Positions 11,061-44,854 of a stretch of 64,000 nucleotides of DNA are shown in pieces; position 1 is the stretch's first letter; every line of letters begins with the position of its first letter. The notes under the pieces are model-generated. The model had not been told where the DNA came from. It made no database searches and was given only the letters and a program-made list of their open reading frames with translations. This DNA is from Thermosynechococcus sp. HN-54. Its GTDB lineage: Bacteria; Cyanobacteriota; Cyanobacteriia; Thermosynechococcales; Thermosynechococcaceae. A program made the translations under genes and the position numbers. The stretch spans positions 2,170,001 to 2,234,000 of the forward strand of contig NZ_CP098039.1 of assembly GCF_023650955.1 (NCBI RefSeq). The letters are read 5' to 3'.

Positions 11061-12779
11061 ATGAGCTACCGCATTGATCGTCAAACCTATGCCGAAACCT
11101 ATGGCCCCACCGTGGGCGATCGCCTGCGGCTAGCGGATACAGACTTAATCATCGAAATTGAGCACGACTATACCCACTACGGCGATGAAGTCAAGTTTGG
11201 CGGTGGCAAAGTTATCCGTGACGGCATGGGTCAGTCTCCCATTAGCAACGGCGAAGGCGCCGTGGATGTCGTCATCACCAATGCCGTCATTCTCGATTGG
11301 TGGGGCGTGATCAAAGCCGATGTCGGCATCAAAGACGGCAAAATTTACAAGATTGGCAAAGCCGGCAACCCCTATACCCAAGACGGCGTAGATATCATTA
11401 TCGGTCCCGGCACAGAGGCGATCGCCGGTGAAGGGAGGATCCTCACCGCTGGCGGGATTGATGCCCACATTCACTTTATCTGTCCACAGCAGATTGCCAC
11501 CGCCATTGCCTCTGGCATTACGACCATGATTGGCGGCGGAACCGGCCCTGCCACCGGCACCAATGCCACCACCTGCACCCCAGGACCTTGGAACATTTAC
11601 CGTATGCTGCAGGCGGCCGATGCCTTTCCAGTGAATCTCGGCTTTTTGGGCAAGGGGAATAGCAGTCAACCCCAAGGGCTGATTGAGCAAATAGAGGCAG
11701 GCGTTGTCGGTCTCAAGCTGCACGAAGACTGGGGAAGTACCCCTGCTGCCATTGACACCTGTTTGAGTGTTGCCGAAGACTACGACATTCAGGTGGCCAT
11801 CCACACCGACACCCTCAACGAATCGGGCTTTGTCGAAGATACAATCGCGGCCTTCAAGAACCGCACTATTCACGCCTACCATACCGAGGGCGCAGGCGGC
11901 GGACACGCGCCGGACATCATCAAGCTCTGTGGTCAAGCCAATGTCTTACCCTCTTCCACCAATCCCACCCGCCCCTACACCATCAATACCCTCGATGAGC
12001 ACCTTGACATGTTGATGGTGTGCCACCACCTCGACCCCAGCATTCCCGAAGATGTCGCCTTTGCTGAGTCCCGAATTCGCCGCGAAACCATTGCTGCTGA
12101 GGATATTCTCCACGACTTAGGCGCTTTTAGCATTATCTCCTCTGACTCCCAAGCAATGGGACGGGTGGGAGAGAGTATTATTCGCACGTGGCAAACCGCC
12201 CACAAAATGAAGGTGCAGCGAGGGCACCTCAGCGATCCCAATCAGCCGGGGGTGGATCATGACAACTTTCGCGCCCGCCGCTATGTCGCCAAGTACACGA
12301 TTAATCCTGCCATCACCCACGGCATTGCGGAGTATGTGGGATCCGTAGAGGTGGGCAAAATCGCTGATCTTTGCCTTTGGAAGCCCGCCTTCTTTGGCGT
12401 TAAGCCGGAACTGGTGATCAAAGGAGGAATGATTGCCTACGCTCAAATGGGGGATGCCAATGCCAGTATTCCCACACCGCAACCCGTGCACATGCAACCC
12501 ATGTTTGCTAGCTATGGGGGCTGCCGAACCGCCACATCGGTCACCTTTATGTCCCAAGCCGGTATTGCCAACAACCTCCCAGAACAGCTAGGCTTGCAAA
12601 AAACGGTGTTACCCGTACGCCACATCCGTCAACTGCGCAAAGCCGATCTCAAGCTCAATGACTACTTACCCCACATTGAAGTGGATCCCGAAACCTATGA
12701 GGTGCGTGCCGATGGTGAATTGCTCACCTGTGAACCCGCCACTGTCTTGCCCCTTGCCCAACGTTACTTTCTCTTTTAG
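11061..12779 (+). CDS. ureC: urease alpha (catalytic) subunit UreC
   Basis: A 572-residue urease catalytic subunit that hydrolyses urea to ammonia and carbamate using two nickel ions. Active-site segments are all present: HIHFICPQQ (nickel His pair), GLKLHEDWG (the carbamylated Lys), [24 protein letters not shown], the flap VCHHLD with its Cys-His, and SSDSQAMGR with the nickel-binding Asp. Length is normal. The beta and gamma subunit genes and most accessory genes are not nearby; ureG is at 3003-3608. A small membrane protein gene starts 3 nt after the stop and is probably translationally coupled. Confidence 0.97.
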
Positions 12780-17331: not shown

Positions 17332-20300
17332 TTAAGTTGTTGAGGTCTGGAGGGGCTGACACTGACGGAGGGCACGCACCAAGTCTTCAAGGTTAATGGG
17401 CTTGCTCACATAATCATCCATACCGGCATCGAGACAAAGCTGGCGATCGCTCTCCATGGCATTGGCCGTCATCGCAATAATCCGCGGGCGAGGTTGGTTC
17501 AGCCGTTGAAATAGATTAATCACCTCACGGGTAGCCGTGACCCCATCCATCTCCGGCATTTGCATATCCATCAAAATCACATCATAGGGTTGTCGCTGCA
17601 CGGCATCCAGCACTTCCAAGCCATTAGCCGCAATATCACCGCGATAGCCCAATTTTTCCAAAATCCGTAATGCCACCATCTGATTCACCTTATTATCCTC
17701 GGCAACAAGAATGCGCAGGGGCGGCAAATCCTGCTTCAGACTGTCAATGGACACGGTTTTGCTCTTGTTTGTCTTGGCTTCAACGGGTTTCGGCGTATGG
17801 CTAAAGAGATCATTGAGGACATTGTAGAGGGTGGACTGCTTTACTGGCTTACTAATGAGCGCATGAAACAATGGCGATTGATCTGCCCCAAGGGAATTGC
17901 CGAGGGAGGTGAGTAAAATCAGCGGAATTTCTGGATACGTCTTGTGAATTTCCTTGGCTAGGGTCAAGCCATCCATTTCTGGCATTTGCAGATCTAAAAT
18001 GGCCACATCCAGAGGCGATTGCGTTTTCAGCAGTGTCAGTGCCTGCTGGCCATTCTCAGCAATCAGGGGTTTCATCTGCCATCCCTTGGTTTGCAACGCC
18101 AGAATTTGGCGATTGGTGGCATTGTCATCCACAATCAGCACCGAGCGATCTTTCACGAAGGATTCTTGATCCGTGCCGTGCGCCTCAGCATTAGGATTCA
18201 GGAGCAGCCGCACCGTGAAATAAAACACTGACCCCGTCTCCTTGATGGGAATGGATTCGTAGTGGGGTGGTGGGTTGCCGCCAACAATCAAGGGCGTGTT
18301 CTGAGTTTTGCTCTCTAACCAAATGCGGCCATTCATGCGCTCCACAAGGCGCTGGCAAATCGCTAATCCCAAACCGGTTCCCCCATAGTGGCGGGTAATC
18401 GAAGCATCCACTTGGCTAAAGGGTTTGAAGAGTCGCTGCATCCCCTCTGGGGTGATACCCACCCCCGTATCCTGAATGGCAAAGAGAAATTCATAGTAGT
18501 TGGGCAAAAACTCGTACTGATGGCTGGGCTGCCCCTTGAGATGGAGAATCACTTCGCCACTTTGGGTAAATTTGATGCTATTGCCAATGAGATTCACCAA
18601 TACTTGCCGCAGCCGTCCCATATCGCCGATGACATGAGCCGGAATATCAGGATCAACATGAGCAAGTAGCTCAATGTGTCGCTCAACGGCACGACTGGCC
18701 ATGAGGTCAAGAACATCTTCGACGCAATTGCGCAAATTAAAGGGATAGGCCTCTAGCTCCAGCTTGCCGGACTCAATTTTAGAGAAGTCAAGAATGTCGT
18801 TGATGATTGTCAACAGTGCATCGCCACTGAGGCGAATCGTGTTGAGAAACTCCTGCTGCTGCGGATTCAGAGGGGTATCTAGCAGTAATCCTGTCAAGCC
18901 AATGATCGCGTTCATGGGGGTGCGGATTTCGTGGCTCATCGTTGCTAAAAACTCACTCTTGGCACGGCTGGCATCTTCGGCCGCTTTGCGGGCTTCCTCT
19001 AGGAGTTCCTGCTGCTGTATCATTTGCGAGATGTCTTCCCATGTACCGACGAAATTCATTACCTTGCCGTCTTCGATGATGGGAATGACACGGGCATTCA
19101 CCCAACGCACCCTACCGTCAGCGTAGGAGAGGCGAAATTGCTCATTGAGGAGCTGGTGTTCTTTTTGGCAGCGCTCCCAAGCAGCAAGCAGGCGATCGCG
19201 ATCCTCGGGGTGCAGTCGTTCAACCCATTGTTCTTGGGCTTCGGCCGGGGTTTTAACCTCTAGGAGATCCAACAGTGCCTGATTCATGAAGGTACTCTTG
19301 CCATCGAGGTCAGCCGTAAAAATGCCGACGGGTGCCATTTCACTGACACTGCGAAACCGCACTTCACTGGCCTCAAGGAGTTGATGCAACTTAAGCTTGC
19401 GGCGATGATCCACTGTGATAATGGCTAGGCCTGCACCACTGGCTGCCCAGAGAATGAGGAATAAAAAAAGAAACTGTAAACTCAAGGGGCGCAACTGCCG
19501 CTCAATCACATTGGGCGCGATGTGGGAAATCACCCACAACCGATATTCGTTTTGATAGAGGGGCGTACGGCTCACGGGATCAGCAGAAATATGATGCGCC
19601 TTCAGAGGCAGTACCGAGCGATAGGCAAAGAGGCCATATTGACCAATAATGCTGCCCGTGGGTTGAGATTGCATCTCCTGCCACAATTCAGGGTAGAGAT
19701 GCTGCACGGTGAGATGCTGCCGCTCGGGGTAGCGGAATCCCCATTCATGGCTGGTGCGCTCTGCTAAAATCCAGTAGCCTTGACTATTGGCCAAAAGGCA
19801 ACTGCCATAGACGCCACGACACCCATTAATCAATGTGTTGAGTAGGTTGGCTGCACGATAACGGACAACTAAAAAACCCACCAGTTGTTGCTGGCGGGTA
19901 TAAACCGGTGTGCCGACATAGAGAATCGGGTTTGCCGCTACGGAAGGTGCCTCATTTTGCTGAACTTCAATGTCAAAGGGCGAGATAAACACTTCGTTGC
20001 GCACCAATTGACGAATCACAGGCCAATAGTTCTGCAACAATTCTGGTTCTTGAGATGGGTGATTTACCCTAATGCCCAAGTTATGACCCAAAGCAAAGCT
20101 CAGTCTGATGTCACCGTTGGGGCTCAAAAAATACAGGCGATCGTAGGTGCGCTTTGAGAGCAGCCAATCTTGGACATCCTGCTCCATTTCCCGCAATTGT
20201 GCTGTACTTGATGAGTTGACCCCAAGATCATCGAAGCCATGGATTGTGGCGATGGTGAGAACATCGGTAATTAACGTGTCTAAGTAAGTGGTGAGGATGA

Positions 20301-20454
20301 GGCTGCCCCGCTCGACTTTGCTTTCTTCTCGCAGTTGCAGATCGCTGAGAATATCTTGGCGCTGGGCGAGGTAAATGGGAGCAAGAATTGCAACTAAAAC
20401 TGCCGTTGCTGGAACAAAAAGTTTCAAGAAGTACTGCAACGGTGATTTGGCCAT
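17332..20454 (-). CDS. membrane hybrid histidine kinase with two receiver domains
   Basis: A 1040-residue sensor. Order: TM1 (about 10-30), a large periplasmic sensor of Cache type (about 31-320), TM2 (about 325-347), PAS/PAC (about 365-480), HisKA (ATMSHEIRTPMNAIIG), HATPase (GNSIKFT, DTGVGI, GGTGLGL), and two receivers. REC1 has its Asp in AILDLQMPEMDG and REC2 in ILMDMQMPEMDG, both followed by the conserved Lys (SKP). It senses an extracytoplasmic signal and phosphorylates its own receivers. No response regulator or Hpt gene is adjacent, so the output target is unknown. Confidence 0.9.
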   Translation of the reverse strand: MAKSPLQYFLKLFVPATAVLVAILAPIYLAQRQDILSDLQLREESKVERGSLILTTYLDTLITDVLTIATIHGFDDLGVNSSSTAQLREMEQDVQDWLLSKRTYDRLYFLSPNGDIRLSFALGHNLGIRVNHPSQEPELLQNYWPVIRQLVRNEVFISPFDIEVQQNEAPSVAANPILYVGTPVYTRQQQLVGFLVVRYRAANLLNTLINGCRGVYGSCLLANSQGYWILAERTSHEWGFRYPERQHLTVQHLYPELWQEMQSQPTGSIIGQYGLFAYRSVLPLKAHHISADPVSRTPLYQNEYRLWVISHIAPNVIERQLRPLSLQFLFLFLILWAASGAGLAIITVDHRRKLKLHQLLEASEVRFRSVSEMAPVGIFTADLDGKSTFMNQALLDLLEVKTPAEAQEQWVERLHPEDRDRLLAAWERCQKEHQLLNEQFRLSYADGRVRWVNARVIPIIEDGKVMNFVGTWEDISQMIQQQELLEEARKAAEDASRAKSEFLATMSHEIRTPMNAIIGLTGLLLDTPLNPQQQEFLNTIRLSGDALLTIINDILDFSKIESGKLELEAYPFNLRNCVEDVLDLMASRAVERHIELLAHVDPDIPAHVIGDMGRLRQVLVNLIGNSIKFTQSGEVILHLKGQPSHQYEFLPNYYEFLFAIQDTGVGITPEGMQRLFKPFSQVDASITRHYGGTGLGLAICQRLVERMNGRIWLESKTQNTPLIVGGNPPPHYESIPIKETGSVFYFTVRLLLNPNAEAHGTDQESFVKDRSVLIVDDNATNRQILALQTKGWQMKPLIAENGQQALTLLKTQSPLDVAILDLQMPEMDGLTLAKEIHKTYPEIPLILLTSLGNSLGADQSPLFHALISKPVKQSTLYNVLNDLFSHTPKPVEAKTNKSKTVSIDSLKQDLPPLRILVAEDNKVNQMVALRILEKLGYRGDIAANGLEVLDAVQRQPYDVILMDMQMPEMDGVTATREVINLFQRLNQPRPRIIAMTANAMESDRQLCLDAGMDDYVSKPINLEDLVRALRQCQPLQTSTT

Positions 20455-37666: not shown

Positions 37667-38245
37667 ATGCTAAGGATGCCTCGATCGCCCTTCTCTATTT
37701 GCACAACTAGTCTTGTACTCCTTGGCGCGATCGCCCCCCTTCCTTTGACGATGTCTGCTGCCATGGCACAACGGGCAGCGGGTGATATTCTGATTGTTGG
37801 CAATTCCCCCTATGACTGGGGGCGCAACCAGCGCTACTGGAATCATTTGCTCAATCTCGCCGGCGCAACGGCAGCCGCCTCCACGCCCACGACGCCAGAC
37901 AACAATCAAGAAGTCGATCCAAAAGTTCTAGAACAACAGCTCCTGCGCAATATTCGAGCTGGTCAGCCCCAACTCCAGCCTGTGCTCAAGTTACCAGGCT
38001 CCTCGGTTGTCACAGGCACGGTGACCAACAATAACCGCCAACCCGTAACCATCCAATCCGTTAATTATGAAGTTGTGGGTCCCAATGGCGAAATTCTGCA
38101 AACGGGTGCCGCGACTCCTGAACCAGCAACAGTGGCTCCCGGTCAGACAGTGACGTATCAGCAAATGCTCCCTACGGTGCCGCCAGATATTGGGGCACGG
38201 GTGCGGTTGAGCCGGCCAGCGGTGCTGCTCCAAGGGGGTGTCTAG
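37667..38245 (+). CDS. exported hypothetical protein
   Basis: A 192-residue protein with a signal peptide (hydrophobic residues 12-33, cleavage near AMA-QRA). The mature part has a linker of Thr/Pro/Asp (65-80) and a C-terminal beta-rich domain (VVTGTVTNNNRQPVTIQSVNYEV, PGQTVTYQQML) of the kind seen in FxLYD/immunoglobulin-like folds. The family is not recognised. It overlaps the coaE start by 8 nt. Confidence 0.6.
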   Translation: MLRMPRSPFSICTTSLVLLGAIAPLPLTMSAAMAQRAAGDILIVGNSPYDWGRNQRYWNHLLNLAGATAAASTPTTPDNNQEVDPKVLEQQLLRNIRAGQPQLQPVLKLPGSSVVTGTVTNNNRQPVTIQSVNYEVVGPNGEILQTGAATPEPATVAPGQTVTYQQMLPTVPPDIGARVRLSRPAVLLQGGV

Positions 38246-38849
38246 TCCCTTTCGTCTCGGTATCACGGGGGGGATTGCCTGCGGTAAATCTGTGGTGGCC
38301 GCCTATTTGCAGCAGCAGTATGGCGTGCCCATTGTTGATGCCGACCAGTTAGCCCGTCAAGCGGTTGCTGTAGGCACACCCATTTATCAAGCCATTGTTG
38401 ATCGCTATGGCGCTGAGATTTGTCGTAGCGATGGTACCCTCGATCGCCCCCGTTTAGGGGAAATTGTCTTTGCCCAACCCGAAGAACGCCGCTGGCTAGA
38501 GGCGCAAATTCATCCTTGGGTCATTGCCCAGATGCAGCAAGCCATTCAAAAGTGTGATCAGTCCCTGATTACCCTCGTAATTCCCCTCTTGTTTGAAGCC
38601 CACCTCGAAGGGTTAGTGGATCACATTTGGGTCGTTGCCACCACACTTGGACAGCAGTTGGCTCGCCTTCAGCAACGGGATGGTCTCTCTGAAAAGGCAG
38701 CCGCCCAACGCCTAGCCAGTCAACTGCCCCTAGAGGAAAAAACTCGGCGGGCAGACACGGTGCTCTGGAATACCGGTTCTCTTGAGGAACTTTACCGTCA
38801 GGTGGATCAGGCCTTTTCCCTACTGGGCAGAAATGGCAAGGGAAGTTAG
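38238..38849 (+). CDS. coaE: dephospho-CoA kinase
   Basis: A 203-residue CoaE, catalysing the last step of coenzyme A synthesis. Motifs are P-loop GITGGIACGKSVVA, VDADQLARQAV, IVFAQPEERRWLE and IPLLFE. The start is GTG inside the end of the previous gene. The last 30 nt overlap the convergent CikA-like kinase gene. Confidence 0.95.
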   Translation: MSSPFRLGITGGIACGKSVVAAYLQQQYGVPIVDADQLARQAVAVGTPIYQAIVDRYGAEICRSDGTLDRPRLGEIVFAQPEERRWLEAQIHPWVIAQMQQAIQKCDQSLITLVIPLLFEAHLEGLVDHIWVVATTLGQQLARLQQRDGLSEKAAAQRLASQLPLEEKTRRADTVLWNTGSLEELYRQVDQAFSLLGRNGKGS

Positions 38850-41102
38850 CCCCATGGTCACCTGTTGCAGAAAACTTTCTGGATTGATCGGCAAAGGAAT
38901 GTAGCGATCGACCCCTTGGTAATTGCCCTTTGACCCCAAAATGAAAATCTTCAGTTGCTCAGGGGTACAGCGTTGCCGCAACTGATCCACCAGCTCCTGC
39001 AAATCCCCAGAGCTAAAGGGTTCGGCCAAAAGCACAGCAATCGGAGTCAGTGCCAGTAACCGTTCCACTTCACCATCCACCAGCCAAATCACTTGATAGC
39101 CTGCGGTGGTCAAAATAGAACAGATCAGGGTGGCAGTGGCCTCATCCTCACTCACGAGCACAATTCGCCCCTCAGGTTCGACCAGTACATCCGTTGTTGC
39201 CAGAGGCGGCACATCCAGCTTGAGTTTCGGGGGTTCTGGCAGAGGGTCTGAAGCGATTGCCGGCAGCCCCACTGTGAACGTACTGCCTTTGCCTTCGGTG
39301 GAGTCCACATCAATCCAGCCATGGTGCAGATCCACCCACTGCTTGGTGAGGGCTAACCCCAAACCCGCCCCAGTATAGGCACGGCCAAAGGAGCTATCCA
39401 ACTGCTGAAACTTCTGAAAGAGTAAGGGTTGCAGGTGTGCAGGGATACCGATGCCATTGTCCTTCACTTGGAAAATCAGTTCATCCTCTTTCCACCATGC
39501 CCGCAGGATCACTTCCCCCATGGCAGGCGTGAACTTAATGGCATTGCTGAGCAGGTTAATGAGAATTTGCTGGATGCGGCGATAGTCTCCCCAAAAGCGA
39601 TCGCGACTAGGGGGAATCATCAGTTGGTGGTGCAGGTTGACCTGATGGCGATGGGCTTGGGGTTTGACGACTTCAATGCAATCCGTACACAGTTGCCGAA
39701 TCGAAAAGGCGCTACGATGCAGGTGCGATCGCCCCAGTTCCGCTTCCGACAAGTCGAGAATGCTGTTAATCAACTCCAGCAGGTGCGTGCCGCTTTCATG
39801 GATAATTTCTAGGTACTCTCGCTGCTTTTCCGTCAACGGGCCAAGAGGCCAGCGCAAGAGAGTGGCCGAAACCCCAATGACGCAGGTAAGAGGCGTCCGC
39901 AATTCATGGCTCATGGTTGCTAGGAAGTCATTTTTAATGCGGTGGGCGGCCTCCATGGCACTCAGGGCTTCCCGCAGGGCTTGGGTGCGTTCGTTGACCC
40001 GCTGTTCGAGGGTGGCCTTCTGCTGTTGCAGCTCGCTGTAGAGTTGCGCTTGGTAAATGGCAATGCTGAGGTGTTGACTCAGATGGGTGAGAAACTCAAT
40101 TTCTTGGGGGTGCCACTGGCGGGGGCGATCGCACTGGTGGGCAATGAGCACTCCCCAGAGCTTGTCTTGGACGATGATGGGCACAATTAACCAAGCCTTG
40201 ATTTGCCAGCGCTCAGCAAAGGATTGAAGACAGGGCACCCCAGTGTAGAACTGCTCAATGTCGCTAACCACAATGGCCTCGCCATGACTCAAGCGCTGAT
40301 AGCTACTGCTGGGTAAAGCGGACCACTGCCAACATTCATCCCATAGCCCTAGGACGGATGGAATGCTCCCATCGCGGCAGGACTCATAGGTAATTTGCCC
40401 GTGCAATTCCCCTTGGGTCTGACCAAATTGCCCCACCAGCAACCGATCCACGTCCAAAAACTCGCGAATGCGATCCACGGCTGTTTTCAAGAGTTCAGGT
40501 AGCTCAAGACTCTGGCGAATTTGGGTTGTCACCTGATGCAGCAGCCGTTCTTGGGCTTGGCGTTCATTGAGAGCAGCGGTCACCAAGGGTTGACAACTTT
40601 GACACTGATTAGCTGTTTCTTCGCTGAGAACATTCATCAGGGAGAGAGCCAAATCTGCTGGCAACAGCGGTTCCTTGGCGGTCAAGGGGGTCAGTTGCTG
40701 CAACACTGCCCGAATCAGGGGACGGTGGCTCAGGAGAGTCTGACTGCGGATTTTGCGGAGAAAGCGAGCGATCGCGGGGGGATGGGTGATAAGTTCAATG
40801 CGGTAGGCACCGAGTTGAGGCGTGGTTTCTGCTTGCAGCAGTAGGGCAAAGGTTTCTGTCACCAGTACTAAAAAAGGAGGCTCATCGCTAGGGGAGGCAA
40901 CAATATCCTCACGGCTAAGGATAGTGGCTCCTCGGCGACTTGCTTCCGCTAGCAGTACCGTCGCCATTCGTTCATAGAACCAAGCTGGTAAAATCCGATC
41001 AAAAATGGGCTGAGGCATAGTAAGTTGAATTCGAGCCTTGATCGTTTCATCGCACCCAATGGCTTTACCCTGTTGAAAGCAATCGCAGTCGGTTGTTTCC
41101 AT
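38820..41102 (-). CDS. CikA-like histidine kinase with GAF and degenerate receiver
   Basis: A 760-residue soluble sensor. Order: an N-terminal region (about 1-200) of uncertain fold, GAF (about 205-360; LLVGQFGQTQGELHG, IKAWLIVPIIVQDKLWG), coiled coil, HisKA (ATMSHELRTPLTCVIG), HATPase (NLLSNAIKFTP, DNGIGIP, GAGLGLAL), then a receiver-like domain (about 640-755). That last domain keeps the acidic start (VSEDEAT) but lacks the phospho-acceptor Asp (AVLLAEPF) and the conserved Lys (IPLPI), so it is a pseudo-receiver as in the circadian input kinase CikA. Ortholog or paralogue cannot be decided. An alternative start is ATG 41018. Confidence 0.75.
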   Translation of the reverse strand: METTDCDCFQQGKAIGCDETIKARIQLTMPQPIFDRILPAWFYERMATVLLAEASRRGATILSREDIVASPSDEPPFLVLVTETFALLLQAETTPQLGAYRIELITHPPAIARFLRKIRSQTLLSHRPLIRAVLQQLTPLTAKEPLLPADLALSLMNVLSEETANQCQSCQPLVTAALNERQAQERLLHQVTTQIRQSLELPELLKTAVDRIREFLDVDRLLVGQFGQTQGELHGQITYESCRDGSIPSVLGLWDECWQWSALPSSSYQRLSHGEAIVVSDIEQFYTGVPCLQSFAERWQIKAWLIVPIIVQDKLWGVLIAHQCDRPRQWHPQEIEFLTHLSQHLSIAIYQAQLYSELQQQKATLEQRVNERTQALREALSAMEAAHRIKNDFLATMSHELRTPLTCVIGVSATLLRWPLGPLTEKQREYLEIIHESGTHLLELINSILDLSEAELGRSHLHRSAFSIRQLCTDCIEVVKPQAHRHQVNLHHQLMIPPSRDRFWGDYRRIQQILINLLSNAIKFTPAMGEVILRAWWKEDELIFQVKDNGIGIPAHLQPLLFQKFQQLDSSFGRAYTGAGLGLALTKQWVDLHHGWIDVDSTEGKGSTFTVGLPAIASDPLPEPPKLKLDVPPLATTDVLVEPEGRIVLVSEDEATATLICSILTTAGYQVIWLVDGEVERLLALTPIAVLLAEPFSSGDLQELVDQLRQRCTPEQLKIFILGSKGNYQGVDRYIPLPINPESFLQQVTMGLTSLAISAQ

Positions 41103-41176
41103 TATTGTCAGTTGTATCGGTTCACAGCGAAGGATAGGAAAAGCCCACGGGTTTCTTTAATAATCTCGACCAGAAG

Positions 41177-44100
41177 ATGCATCGAATCCTTACATTAAGT
41201 AATCCGACTGTTGCCACAGATAACGAAAATGTTGCATTTCTACAGCAAAGCAGTGCCCCTATTGTTATCTTAACGGCAGCCGATACAGACATTGCCCTTC
41301 TAGCTCAAGCGTACAGTCAACTGCCCAAGGACTTTCCAGATCTACGACTAGCAAACCTGCTTCATTTACAAGCGGCAGCAGCCATTGATGACTATGGCGA
41401 TCGCGTCCTAGCCAAGGCCGATGTTGTTGTGATTCGCCTCTTGGGGGGACGGGGCTATTGGAGCTATGGCCTCGAGGTGGCGCAGCAAATGGTCAACGAT
41501 CGCAGGGGGCAGTTGATCTTGCTGCCGGGGGACGATCGCCCCGATCTAGAACTCATGAGTTTGTCTAGTTGGCCGCTGCCACAGGTGAATCGCCTCTGGC
41601 AATACTTCTGCGAGGGAGGACAGGAAAATATTCAGCGTGCCCTAGAGTTCATTGGCCACTACGGTTGCAGTTGGGGTCAAGCCCCGCCACCCCCCCAAAG
41701 GATTCCCCGCTGGGGCACCTATCCCATTCAAGGGAACGTAGCCACCGATTGGCCGCAGGTGGGAATTCTCTTTTACCGTGCCCATTACTTGGCGGGCAAT
41801 ACTGCGGTCATTGATGCCCTCGCTCAGGCCTTGATGCAGCGGCAGCTGGCACCTGTCCCCGTGTTTGTCTCCTCGCTGCAAGACCCGGAAATTCAACGGG
41901 AACTGCTGGCGGCATGGCAGGGTAGGGTGGAACTGATTCTCAATACCACGGGGTTCGCGATCGCCAAGCCCAACGAGGTCAATTTTTGGCAGCAGTTGGA
42001 TGTCCCAGTTTTACAAGTGATTCTCAGCAGTAGCACCTACGGAACTTGGCAAGAACATCCCCAAGGGCTGACGCCCCGCGACCTTGCCATGCACGTGGTT
42101 TTGCCGGAGGTAGATGGGCGCATCATTACCCGTGCGGTGTCCTTTAAGGCGGTGGCGCAAATTCAACCCGACGTGGAAACAACGGTGACCACCTACGCCG
42201 CGGCGGGCGATCGCCTGCACTGGGTCAGCGATCTAGCAGCCAACTGGCTGAAACTCCGCCGCAAAGCCCCCCATGAGCGCCGCATCGCCCTGATTTTGGC
42301 CAATTACCCCTGCCGCGATGGTCGCCTTGCCAATGGCGTCGGTCTCGATACCCCCACCAGTACCGTGGAACTGCTCAAGGCACTTCAGGCGGCTGGCTAT
42401 AATCTGGGTACTGAGCCTCTGCCCAAGGATGGCGATGCCCTGATTCAGCACCTCAGCCGCTACCGCACCAATGATCCCGAAGGCAATCAGTGGCGGCTGC
42501 CCCGCTACACCCTCCCCCTTGAGGCCTACCAGCGCTATGTTCAGGAATTGCCAAAGGCAGTACAGGAGGCGATTAACCAACGCTGGCGATCGCCCACCAC
42601 CGATCTACCCATTGCCGGTGACTGTTGGGGCAATATTTTTGTTGGCGTTCAACCCAGTCGGGGCTACGATCGCGACCCCAGTTTGAACTATCATGCTCCC
42701 GATTTGGAACCCACCCCAGAGTATCTCGCCTTTTACTTTTGGCTACGCCATATCTTTGGGGCGGATGCCATTGTCCATGTGGGCAAGCACGGCAATCTAG
42801 AATGGCTCCCCGGCAAAGGGATTGCCCTCAGTGCCACCTGTTTCCCCGAAGTTGCCCTTGGCTCTGTGCCCCACTTTTACCCTTTTATTGTCAATGACCC
42901 TGGCGAAGGTGCCCAAGCGAAACGCCGTGCCCAAGCCGTGATTTTGGATCACCTGACACCGCCCCTCACCCGTGCTGAGCTGTACGGCGGCCTAGAGACC
43001 CTTAGCCACTACATTGAGGAATACTACGCTGCTGAGCAGTTCGATCGCCCTCGCTTGAGTGTGCTGCGGCAGCAGATTGAAACCCTCGTCAAAGAACTGG
43101 ATCTGGATCAAGAAATTGGTGCGCCGAATCCTGAGGAAACCTGGACGGCGTGGCTGGCGCGCACCGATGGCTACCTCTGCGATCTGCGGGATGCCCAGAT
43201 TCGTGATGGCCTGCACATTCTTGGCCAATGCCCCCAAGGACAGCAACTGCGAGATCTGATGGTGGCGATCGCCCGCACTCCCAGTTGCCAACACATAGGT
43301 CTCACTCGTGCCTTAGCAAAGGATCAAGGGGTTGATTTAGACCCCCTGACCGCTAACCCAACCGATCCGAGTCCTGTACGCGGATATCGTTCCGTTGGCG
43401 AGTGGCAAAACGCTCTTGAGGAAGCCGCAGCAAAACTGGTGGAGGGTTTACTGAAGGGCACCCCCGATCTCCCCTGTGGGTCTGCCACGCGGCAGGTACT
43501 GCATTGGATGCGTACGGTGCTCTACCCTGCCCTGCAACAGACGCGCCAAGAAATTGACCACTTTCTCCATGGCTTAAATGGCGGCTATGTCCCCAGTGGG
43601 GCTGCCGGTGCTCCCAGTCGCGGTCGTCCTGATGTCTTACCCACCGGTCGGAATTTCTATGGGGTGGATTTGCGTGCGGTGCCTACGGAGGCTGCTTGGG
43701 CATTGGCAGAGCGATCGGCGGCAGCACTCATTGAACGCTATTGTCAAGAGCAGGGAGAATTTCCCCGTACCCTGGGTCTCTCGGTATGGGGCACCGCGAC
43801 GATGCGCACGGGGGGCGATGATATTGCCCAAGCCCTTGCCCTCTTAGGCGTGCGACCTGTCTGGGAGGGCGCTTCACGACGGGTCGTGGATCTGGAGGTA
43901 ATTCCCCTGTCACTGTTGGGACGACCACGTGTGGATGTGATGCTGCGGATTTCTGGCTTTTTCCGCGATGCCTTTCCCAACCTGATTGCTCTTTTTGATG
44001 AAGCGGTACAGCGGGTGAGCCAGTTGGATGAACCCGCCGATCAAAATCCGTTGGCTGCCCAAGTGGCTAAAGAAACGGCCTATTGGCAACAGCAGGGTCT

Positions 44101-44854
44101 CTCCTTGAAACAAGCTCAACAACGGGCACGCTTTCGCATCTTTGGTTCCAAACCCGGTGCCTACGGCGCTGGGCTGCAAGGACTCATCGAAGCGCAAAAC
44201 TGGCATGGGGATGCGGATCTCGCCCGTGCCTACATCCACTGGAGTAGCTATGCCTACACCGGGGAAGCCCACAGTCACAATGCTGCCGAAGCCCTAGAGC
44301 AGCGGCTGAGTCAACTGCAAGTGGTGCTGCAAAATCAAGACAACCGTGAGCATGACCTGTTGGACTCCGATGATTATTACCAGTTTCAGGGGGGCTTGAC
44401 CGTTGCCGTGCGATCGCGATCGGGGCAGCAGCCCACGGTTTACTTTGGTGATCACTCCCGACCAGAGCAGCCGAAAATTCGCACGCTCCAAGAGGAACTG
44501 CTGCGAGTCTATCGCTCCCGCGTGATTAATCCCAAATGGCTAGCAGGGATACAGCGCCATGGCTACAAAGGTGCTTTTGAAATGGCCGCCACAGTGGATT
44601 ATCTCTTTGGCTATGCCGCCACGGCTCGCTGTGTACCCGACTATGTGTTTACGGGCATCGCTCAGACCTATTTGCTCGATGCGCAAATGCAAGCTTTTGT
44701 TGCCCAGCATAACCCTTGGGCCCTGCGGGACATGGCCGAGCGGCTCCTCGAAGCAGCCCAACGTCAATTGTGGCAAGCAGCTGATCCGCAGATCTTAGAC
44801 CGCCTGCAGGCGATCGCCCTTGAGGCCGAAGGTTTAATTGAAGGCAAGTTTTAA
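41177..44854 (+). CDS. cobN: cobaltochelatase subunit CobN
   Basis: A 1225-residue CobN/ChlH-superfamily protein. Length and motifs (HYGCSWGQAPPPPQRIPRWG, LPGKGIALSATCFPEVALG, KHGNLEWLPGKG, GNRRRVDLEVIP-like segment near 900) point to CobN, which inserts cobalt into hydrogenobyrinate-type intermediates during cobamide synthesis, rather than ChlH (longer). In many cyanobacteria cobN is solitary, and the CobS/T or ChlI/D partners are not nearby here. The final 300 residues include AYTGEAHSHNAAEAL. The start is ATG 41177. Confidence 0.9.
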   Translation: MHRILTLSNPTVATDNENVAFLQQSSAPIVILTAADTDIALLAQAYSQLPKDFPDLRLANLLHLQAAAAIDDYGDRVLAKADVVVIRLLGGRGYWSYGLEVAQQMVNDRRGQLILLPGDDRPDLELMSLSSWPLPQVNRLWQYFCEGGQENIQRALEFIGHYGCSWGQAPPPPQRIPRWGTYPIQGNVATDWPQVGILFYRAHYLAGNTAVIDALAQALMQRQLAPVPVFVSSLQDPEIQRELLAAWQGRVELILNTTGFAIAKPNEVNFWQQLDVPVLQVILSSSTYGTWQEHPQGLTPRDLAMHVVLPEVDGRIITRAVSFKAVAQIQPDVETTVTTYAAAGDRLHWVSDLAANWLKLRRKAPHERRIALILANYPCRDGRLANGVGLDTPTSTVELLKALQAAGYNLGTEPLPKDGDALIQHLSRYRTNDPEGNQWRLPRYTLPLEAYQRYVQELPKAVQEAINQRWRSPTTDLPIAGDCWGNIFVGVQPSRGYDRDPSLNYHAPDLEPTPEYLAFYFWLRHIFGADAIVHVGKHGNLEWLPGKGIALSATCFPEVALGSVPHFYPFIVNDPGEGAQAKRRAQAVILDHLTPPLTRAELYGGLETLSHYIEEYYAAEQFDRPRLSVLRQQIETLVKELDLDQEIGAPNPEETWTAWLARTDGYLCDLRDAQIRDGLHILGQCPQGQQLRDLMVAIARTPSCQHIGLTRALAKDQGVDLDPLTANPTDPSPVRGYRSVGEWQNALEEAAAKLVEGLLKGTPDLPCGSATRQVLHWMRTVLYPALQQTRQEIDHFLHGLNGGYVPSGAAGAPSRGRPDVLPTGRNFYGVDLRAVPTEAAWALAERSAAALIERYCQEQGEFPRTLGLSVWGTATMRTGGDDIAQALALLGVRPVWEGASRRVVDLEVIPLSLLGRPRVDVMLRISGFFRDAFPNLIALFDEAVQRVSQLDEPADQNPLAAQVAKETAYWQQQGLSLKQAQQRARFRIFGSKPGAYGAGLQGLIEAQNWHGDADLARAYIHWSSYAYTGEAHSHNAAEALEQRLSQLQVVLQNQDNREHDLLDSDDYYQFQGGLTVAVRSRSGQQPTVYFGDHSRPEQPKIRTLQEELLRVYRSRVINPKWLAGIQRHGYKGAFEMAATVDYLFGYAATARCVPDYVFTGIAQTYLLDAQMQAFVAQHNPWALRDMAERLLEAAQRQLWQAADPQILDRLQAIALEAEGLIEGKF

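Follow-up and report, generated by a model that had tools for sequence, protein, structure and literature searches.

A predicted CikA orthologue, probably the only one in its genome, in Thermosynechococcus sp. HN-54

CikA is a protein through which the day-night clock of cyanobacteria is connected with its inputs and outputs. The window analysed here, a stretch of 64,000 nucleotides from Thermosynechococcus sp. HN-54, contains a histidine kinase gene that the initial annotation described as a CikA of a second type, that is, a paralogue with an input of its own. Does this gene encode such a paralogue, or is it the cikA of the organism? Our analysis points to the latter with a probability of about 96%: judged by its sequence, the gene is cikA, an ordinary orthologue encoding the sole circadian input/output histidine kinase of this genome. 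A CikA orthologue in a genus with a structurally known CikA pseudo-receiver is an ordinary finding, and one that is already known. The features referred to below are as follows, with residue numbers that follow the 760-residue open reading frame.

38820..41018, minus strand: cikA coding sequence, most likely starting at Met29 of the 760-aa frame; 732 aa plus stop (open reading frame, upstream stops, orthologues)
41019..41102, minus strand: 28 codons, probably non-coding upstream DNA (stops in genus mates)
40056..40502, minus strand: GAF domain, residues 201-349 (PF01590, 5.8e-23), matching solved GAF domains of cyanobacteriochrome type
40332..40334, minus strand: Cys257, a candidate second cysteine; its D-x-C-W motif is shared by all 11 genus copies and by L031 and L032
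40230..40232, minus strand: Cys291, followed by Leu, where bilin-binding GAF domains have their canonical cysteine; conserved in all 11 genus copies
39735..39935, minus strand: HisKA domain, residues 390-456 (PF00512, 4.2e-20)
39906-39908, minus strand: phospho-acceptor His399, within HisKA
39258..39590, minus strand: HATPase_c domain, residues 505-615 (PF02518, 5.2e-28)
38823..39173, minus strand: pseudo-receiver, residues 644-760, 112 of 117 residues identical to PDB 5jyu
39072..39092, minus strand: β2 strand VIWLVDG, residues 671-677, the putative KaiB-docking strand by homology to PDB 5jyv
41177..44854, plus strand: cobN (cobaltochelatase subunit), divergent neighbour (TIGR02257, 1834 bits)
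38238..38849, plus strand: coaE (dephospho-CoA kinase), convergent neighbour, its 3' end overlapping that of cikA by 30 bases (38820-38849)

Gene limits and domain architecture

The open reading frame from which the annotation started (38820..41102, minus strand, 760 aa) exists, but its 5' end appears to be 84 bases too long, and the coding sequence is most likely 38820..41018, encoding 732 residues. In seven of the ten genus mates, the codon equivalent to Met29 is immediately preceded by one or two in-frame stops, and similarity begins at residue 28; the first 28 codons are therefore probably non-coding. The record of an eighth genus mate, L066, likewise shows stops before this codon. L030 has a stop three codons ahead of its MM start; the L029 frame stays open beyond this point, with an upstream sequence unlike that of the window. 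A separate observation concerns the genus mate G009 (locus L028) and L066, where the open CikA frame begins at about residue 155 although the start region can be read in a different frame. Either the gene itself or the assembly contains a frameshift.

The GAF, HisKA and HATPase_c domains all score well above the Pfam cut-offs. No Pfam receiver family matches the C-terminus of the protein, where residues 644-760 match PDB 5jyu at 8.4e-67 and residues 645-723 match PDB 2j48 at 1.1e-9. We take the pseudo-receiver in 5jyu and 5jyv to be that of CikA from T. elongatus (T. vestitus BP-1). The order of N-terminal region, GAF, HisKA, HATPase and C-terminal receiver-like domain is that of CikA, and in this respect the Pfam domains and the 5jyu match bear out the initial annotation. 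The annotation was also right that the receiver lacks the phosphorylation residues: in an alignment with PhoB and orthologues, Ala693 occupies the position of the phospho-accepting aspartate and Leu737 that of the lysine. The acidic pair, Glu652 and Asp653, is retained.

The annotation noted a VIWLVDG strand in common with T. elongatus CikA, which the 5jyu match corroborates; the same strand occurs in 2j48, the pseudo-receiver of CikA from S. elongatus PCC 7942, a protein with the same domain order. It added that the domain differs elsewhere from that of T. elongatus, which does not hold, as only five residues of the 117 are substituted. Genus mate G005 carries the exact 5jyu domain (117 of 117 residues, locus L025), and this T. 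elongatus-type CikA is identical to the window protein at 650 of 729 positions over its full length, most of the differences lying in the N-terminal region (108 of 150 identical).

Orthology and copy number

We searched the genome of the organism itself, a single contig of 2,705,963 bases that is 99.99% complete. With the full-length protein as the query, cikA itself scored 1717 bits and the next kinase 234 bits; with the pseudo-receiver alone, the values were 260.4 bits for the self match and 19.3 bits for the next. In a search of 58 genomes, each of the ten genus mates yielded one strong orthologue of at least 1237.9 bits. The match is nearly full-length in nine of them and covers residues 155-760 in G009. 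Across the 11 genus genomes, no other kinase scored above 239.1 bits. There is thus one CikA copy per genome in 11 of 11 genus genomes, our own included, which is the outcome, a sole CikA orthologue in the genus, that the annotation had set beforehand as refuting a paralogue.

Phylogeny agrees with this picture. We built a maximum-likelihood tree from nine kinases of the genome (out of the 26 places mentioned below) and the best matches in 29 other genomes. In this tree the window protein groups with the matches from other genomes, with a branch support of 96/96, and the nine kinases fall outside its CikA group; several inner branches of this tree are weak and the paralogue branches are long. 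Orthology, tree and domain match together turn the annotation's wording, 'CikA-like with pseudo-receiver', into CikA proper. A paralogue that differs in its pseudo-receiver and has an input of its own, the true CikA being encoded elsewhere in the genome, would fit the 26 places in this genome that share the GAF-HisKA-HATPase part in the full-length protein search, but is refuted by the search of the near-complete single contig, where no other place exceeds 19.3 bits with the pseudo-receiver and the next whole-protein match falls to 234 bits, and it is further disfavoured by the placement of L025, with its exact 5jyu domain, in the same clade and between the same cobN and coaE neighbours as in the window; we give it next to no weight.

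A second CikA, in the window or elsewhere in the genome, was considered and rejected. The window encodes one further hybrid kinase (17332..20454, minus strand), but this carries PAS domains along with two matches to Response_reg, the canonical receiver, and elsewhere in the genome nothing exceeds the 19.3 bits already mentioned with the pseudo-receiver. Scanning contigs with CikA returned 19 loci, three of them from Thermosynechococcus (L064-L066) and the other 16 partial kinase matches in Planctomycetota or Proteobacteria-type bins. Among the best 5000 records from a plasmid collection we found no CikA, the GAF and kinase matches there being below 60% identity and none covering more than 80% of the query. 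No NCBIfam model reached its cut-off for the protein, the best sub-threshold one being HrmK (238.6 against 725 bits). Since Pfam has no match to the pseudo-receiver and all NCBIfam models stay below cut-off, no curated family confirms the name CikA.

The pseudo-receiver and predicted KaiB docking

According to a passage of PMC6378743, the β2 strand of the CikA pseudo-receiver and the β2 strand of fold-switched KaiB form a parallel β-sheet, with contacts to KaiB at CikA C630, I641 and L654 (T. elongatus numbering), and the C630R variant loses the complex. These positions hold C, I and L in the 729-residue orthologue L025 and correspond to C661, I672 and L685 in the window protein. A passage of PMC12632262 places quinone binding near α1/β2 of the domain. 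The pseudo-receiver of 5jyu and 5jyv, to which the window domain is identical at 112 of 117 positions, has been solved both by itself and in complex with KaiB. PDB 5jyv contains the pseudo-receiver together with a KaiB chain, and the KaiB of our genome matches that chain at 7.9e-55. The genome also has kaiA, kaiC (TIGR02655, 920 bits) and a gene for a sasA-like kinase that carries a KaiB-like domain. RpaA was not among the matches listed, and the response regulator at L052 reaches 221 bits, short of the 330 required for RpaB. In addition to kaiB and the sasA-like gene, the genome has a 276-residue open reading frame near position 2,013,600 (L060:1492-2322, minus strand) that ends in a KaiB-family domain (PF07689, 106 bits).

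We examined the conservation of these residues in 44 loci, comprising the 30 best-scoring loci of the 58-genome search and 14 picked by eye; the sample was picked and is not random. G020 was left out despite a score of 286.6 bits, above that of the lowest locus taken (G038 at 267.3), as were G032, G057, G051, G037 and G042, in which the best matches resembled multi-domain kinases of other kinds. The open frames of L090 and L094 do not include a pseudo-receiver, and removing these two leaves 42 copies for this domain.

Over these 42 picked copies, Cys661 is present in 41, Ile or Val at position 672 in 41 and Leu685 in 39, with all three together in 37; Trp673 is invariant. The phospho-accepting aspartate occurs in 12 copies, each of which has the lysine too; the lysine occurs in 22, and 20 copies lack both, including all 11 from the genus. 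Outside the genus, 12 of the 31 picked copies keep both (L036, L038-L047 and L092), so loss of the phospho-acceptor does not define the wider CikA family. Counted over the picked copies, the KaiB-contact residues are far better kept than the phosphorylation residues, in keeping with docking being what the pseudo-receiver is conserved for. One result speaks against too simple a picture: when columns are ranked by conservation outside the genus, position 672 comes 58th of 111, a low rank that is due to the alternation of I and V, and the lysine position, 737, stands higher at 36th.

As a side observation, 11 of the 12 copies with aspartate and lysine have lost one or both residues of the acidic pair, and the Thermosynechococcus copies are the reverse, having kept the pair and lost the other two. 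Only L038, among the 42 picked copies, combines the acidic pair with both aspartate and lysine. On a tree of the kinase part, the aspartate and lysine states need at least seven changes each and the GAF cysteine state nine, on a topology with many weak branches; such repeated changes indicate that all three traits come and go. L096 has a long branch in this tree and may not be an orthologue.

By homology, the window CikA would act as the KaiB-docked kinase/phosphatase of the clock. Its pseudo-receiver would have lost its phosphorylation chemistry and become a docking domain, whose β2 strand would pair at night with that of fold-switched KaiB on the CI ring of KaiC. Docked CikA may then compete with KaiA on KaiB, and docking would switch CikA towards removing phosphate from RpaA, with quinones bound by the pseudo-receiver carrying the redox state of the cell. 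KaiB binding, RpaA phosphatase activity and quinone sensing are roles that we infer from studies of S. elongatus and T. elongatus.

GAF cysteines and gene neighbourhood

The best PDB matches of the window GAF domain are cyanobacteriochrome-type proteins, and its Cys291 aligns with the bilin cysteines of RcaE (Cys-Leu) and 6oap (Cys-His). A histidine next to the canonical cysteine is common in cyanobacteriochromes and is not universal; the residue in the window protein is Leu292, and RcaE too has a leucine there. A second cysteine in a DXCF motif is given in a passage of PMC6628166 as a mark of the DXCF cyanobacteriochrome lineage. Compared with this motif at the level of sequence, the D-x-C-W around Cys257 has tryptophan in place of phenylalanine.

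L089, L092, L093, L095 and L096 have no GAF domain in the open frame, and without them the picked set comprises 39 GAF copies. The canonical cysteine is present in 27 of these and a cysteine in the second region in 29. Both occur together in 25 copies, neither occurs in eight, and no copy has a histidine after the canonical cysteine. Around Cys257 the alignment is gapped outside the genus.

How do these residues compare with those of known CikA proteins? The Synechocystis PCC 6803 homologue (Slr1969), to which the window protein can be likened by description only, is presented in a passage of PMC11372060 as a CikA with a chromophore-binding GAF domain and as a true photoreceptor. For T. vulcanus, a passage of PMC9090330 names one putative cikA, counts its product among the proteins predicted to sense blue-to-green light and reports that the cikA mutant is normal for positive phototaxis. 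The GAF domain of S. elongatus CikA, in contrast, is described in a passage of PMC6378743 as lacking the bilin cysteine and histidine, whereas the window GAF has Cys291. L049, which we infer from its likeness to 2j48 to be a close relative of S. elongatus, also differs from the window copy: it has neither GAF cysteine, keeps the receiver lysine and has no cobN alongside. In the papers searched, we found no published spectrum of CikA from Thermosynechococcus.

Bilin-based light input through the CikA GAF domain is therefore possible; the GAF cysteines make it plausible, and as far as the passages of PMC11372060 and PMC9090330 go, it has already been anticipated in print. A stronger proposal is that the protein is a CikA orthologue concerned mainly with direct light sensing, its GAF domain carrying a bilin through Cys291 and Cys257, so that light, and not quinone alone, would set the kinase/phosphatase balance of KaiB-docked CikA. 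The presence of both cysteines throughout the genus and in most picked GAF copies, the cyanobacteriochrome-type structural matches, the Cys-Leu precedent of RcaE and the published descriptions of the Synechocystis and T. vulcanus proteins would all suit such a role. Against it stand the leucine in place of the usual histidine, the gapped alignment around Cys257 outside the genus, the eight copies without either cysteine, which imply that the family does not need them, the normal phototaxis of the T. vulcanus mutant and the missing spectrum. On balance we consider mainly direct light sensing a tentative proposal, worth keeping in view though somewhat improbable.

In the window, 158 bases (41019-41176) separate Met29 from the start of cobN. 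The head-to-head arrangement of the two genes occurs in 33 of the 44 picked loci, spread over many families of cyanobacteria; this count includes L090, where the match begins only at cobN residue 251. The other 11 loci gave no cobN match at 1e-5 in the 524 (L094) to 2055 bases upstream. The coaE gene adjoins cikA in nine loci, all in the genus, and the cobN pairing is thus much the older of the two. We found no paper naming both cikA and cobN in the literature searched, no cobalamin riboswitch or other Rfam RNA at gathering threshold in the gap between the two genes, and no sigma-70-type promoter in 40950..41250. The sole Rfam match in the window is a 5_ureB_sRNA at 11216-11502 on the minus strand (103.7 bits).

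Returning to the window gene as the ordinary cikA, one could extend the docking model so that Thermosynechococcus CikA is a dual-cysteine bilin photoreceptor held on KaiB-KaiC by its pseudo-receiver, in which light could set the RpaA phosphatase directly, unlike in the blind CikA of S. elongatus, and in which the synthesis of tetrapyrroles or cobalamin may be linked to cikA expression through the ancient pairing with cobN. We regard this combination as unlikely.

The outcome of this work is a sorted record, in which the start codon of cikA is corrected and its copy number settled. Thermosynechococcus is the source of the standard heat-stable clock proteins used for structures. Its CikA GAF domain keeps cysteines that are absent from the S. 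elongatus-like copy, and the two model CikA proteins might differ in direct light input.
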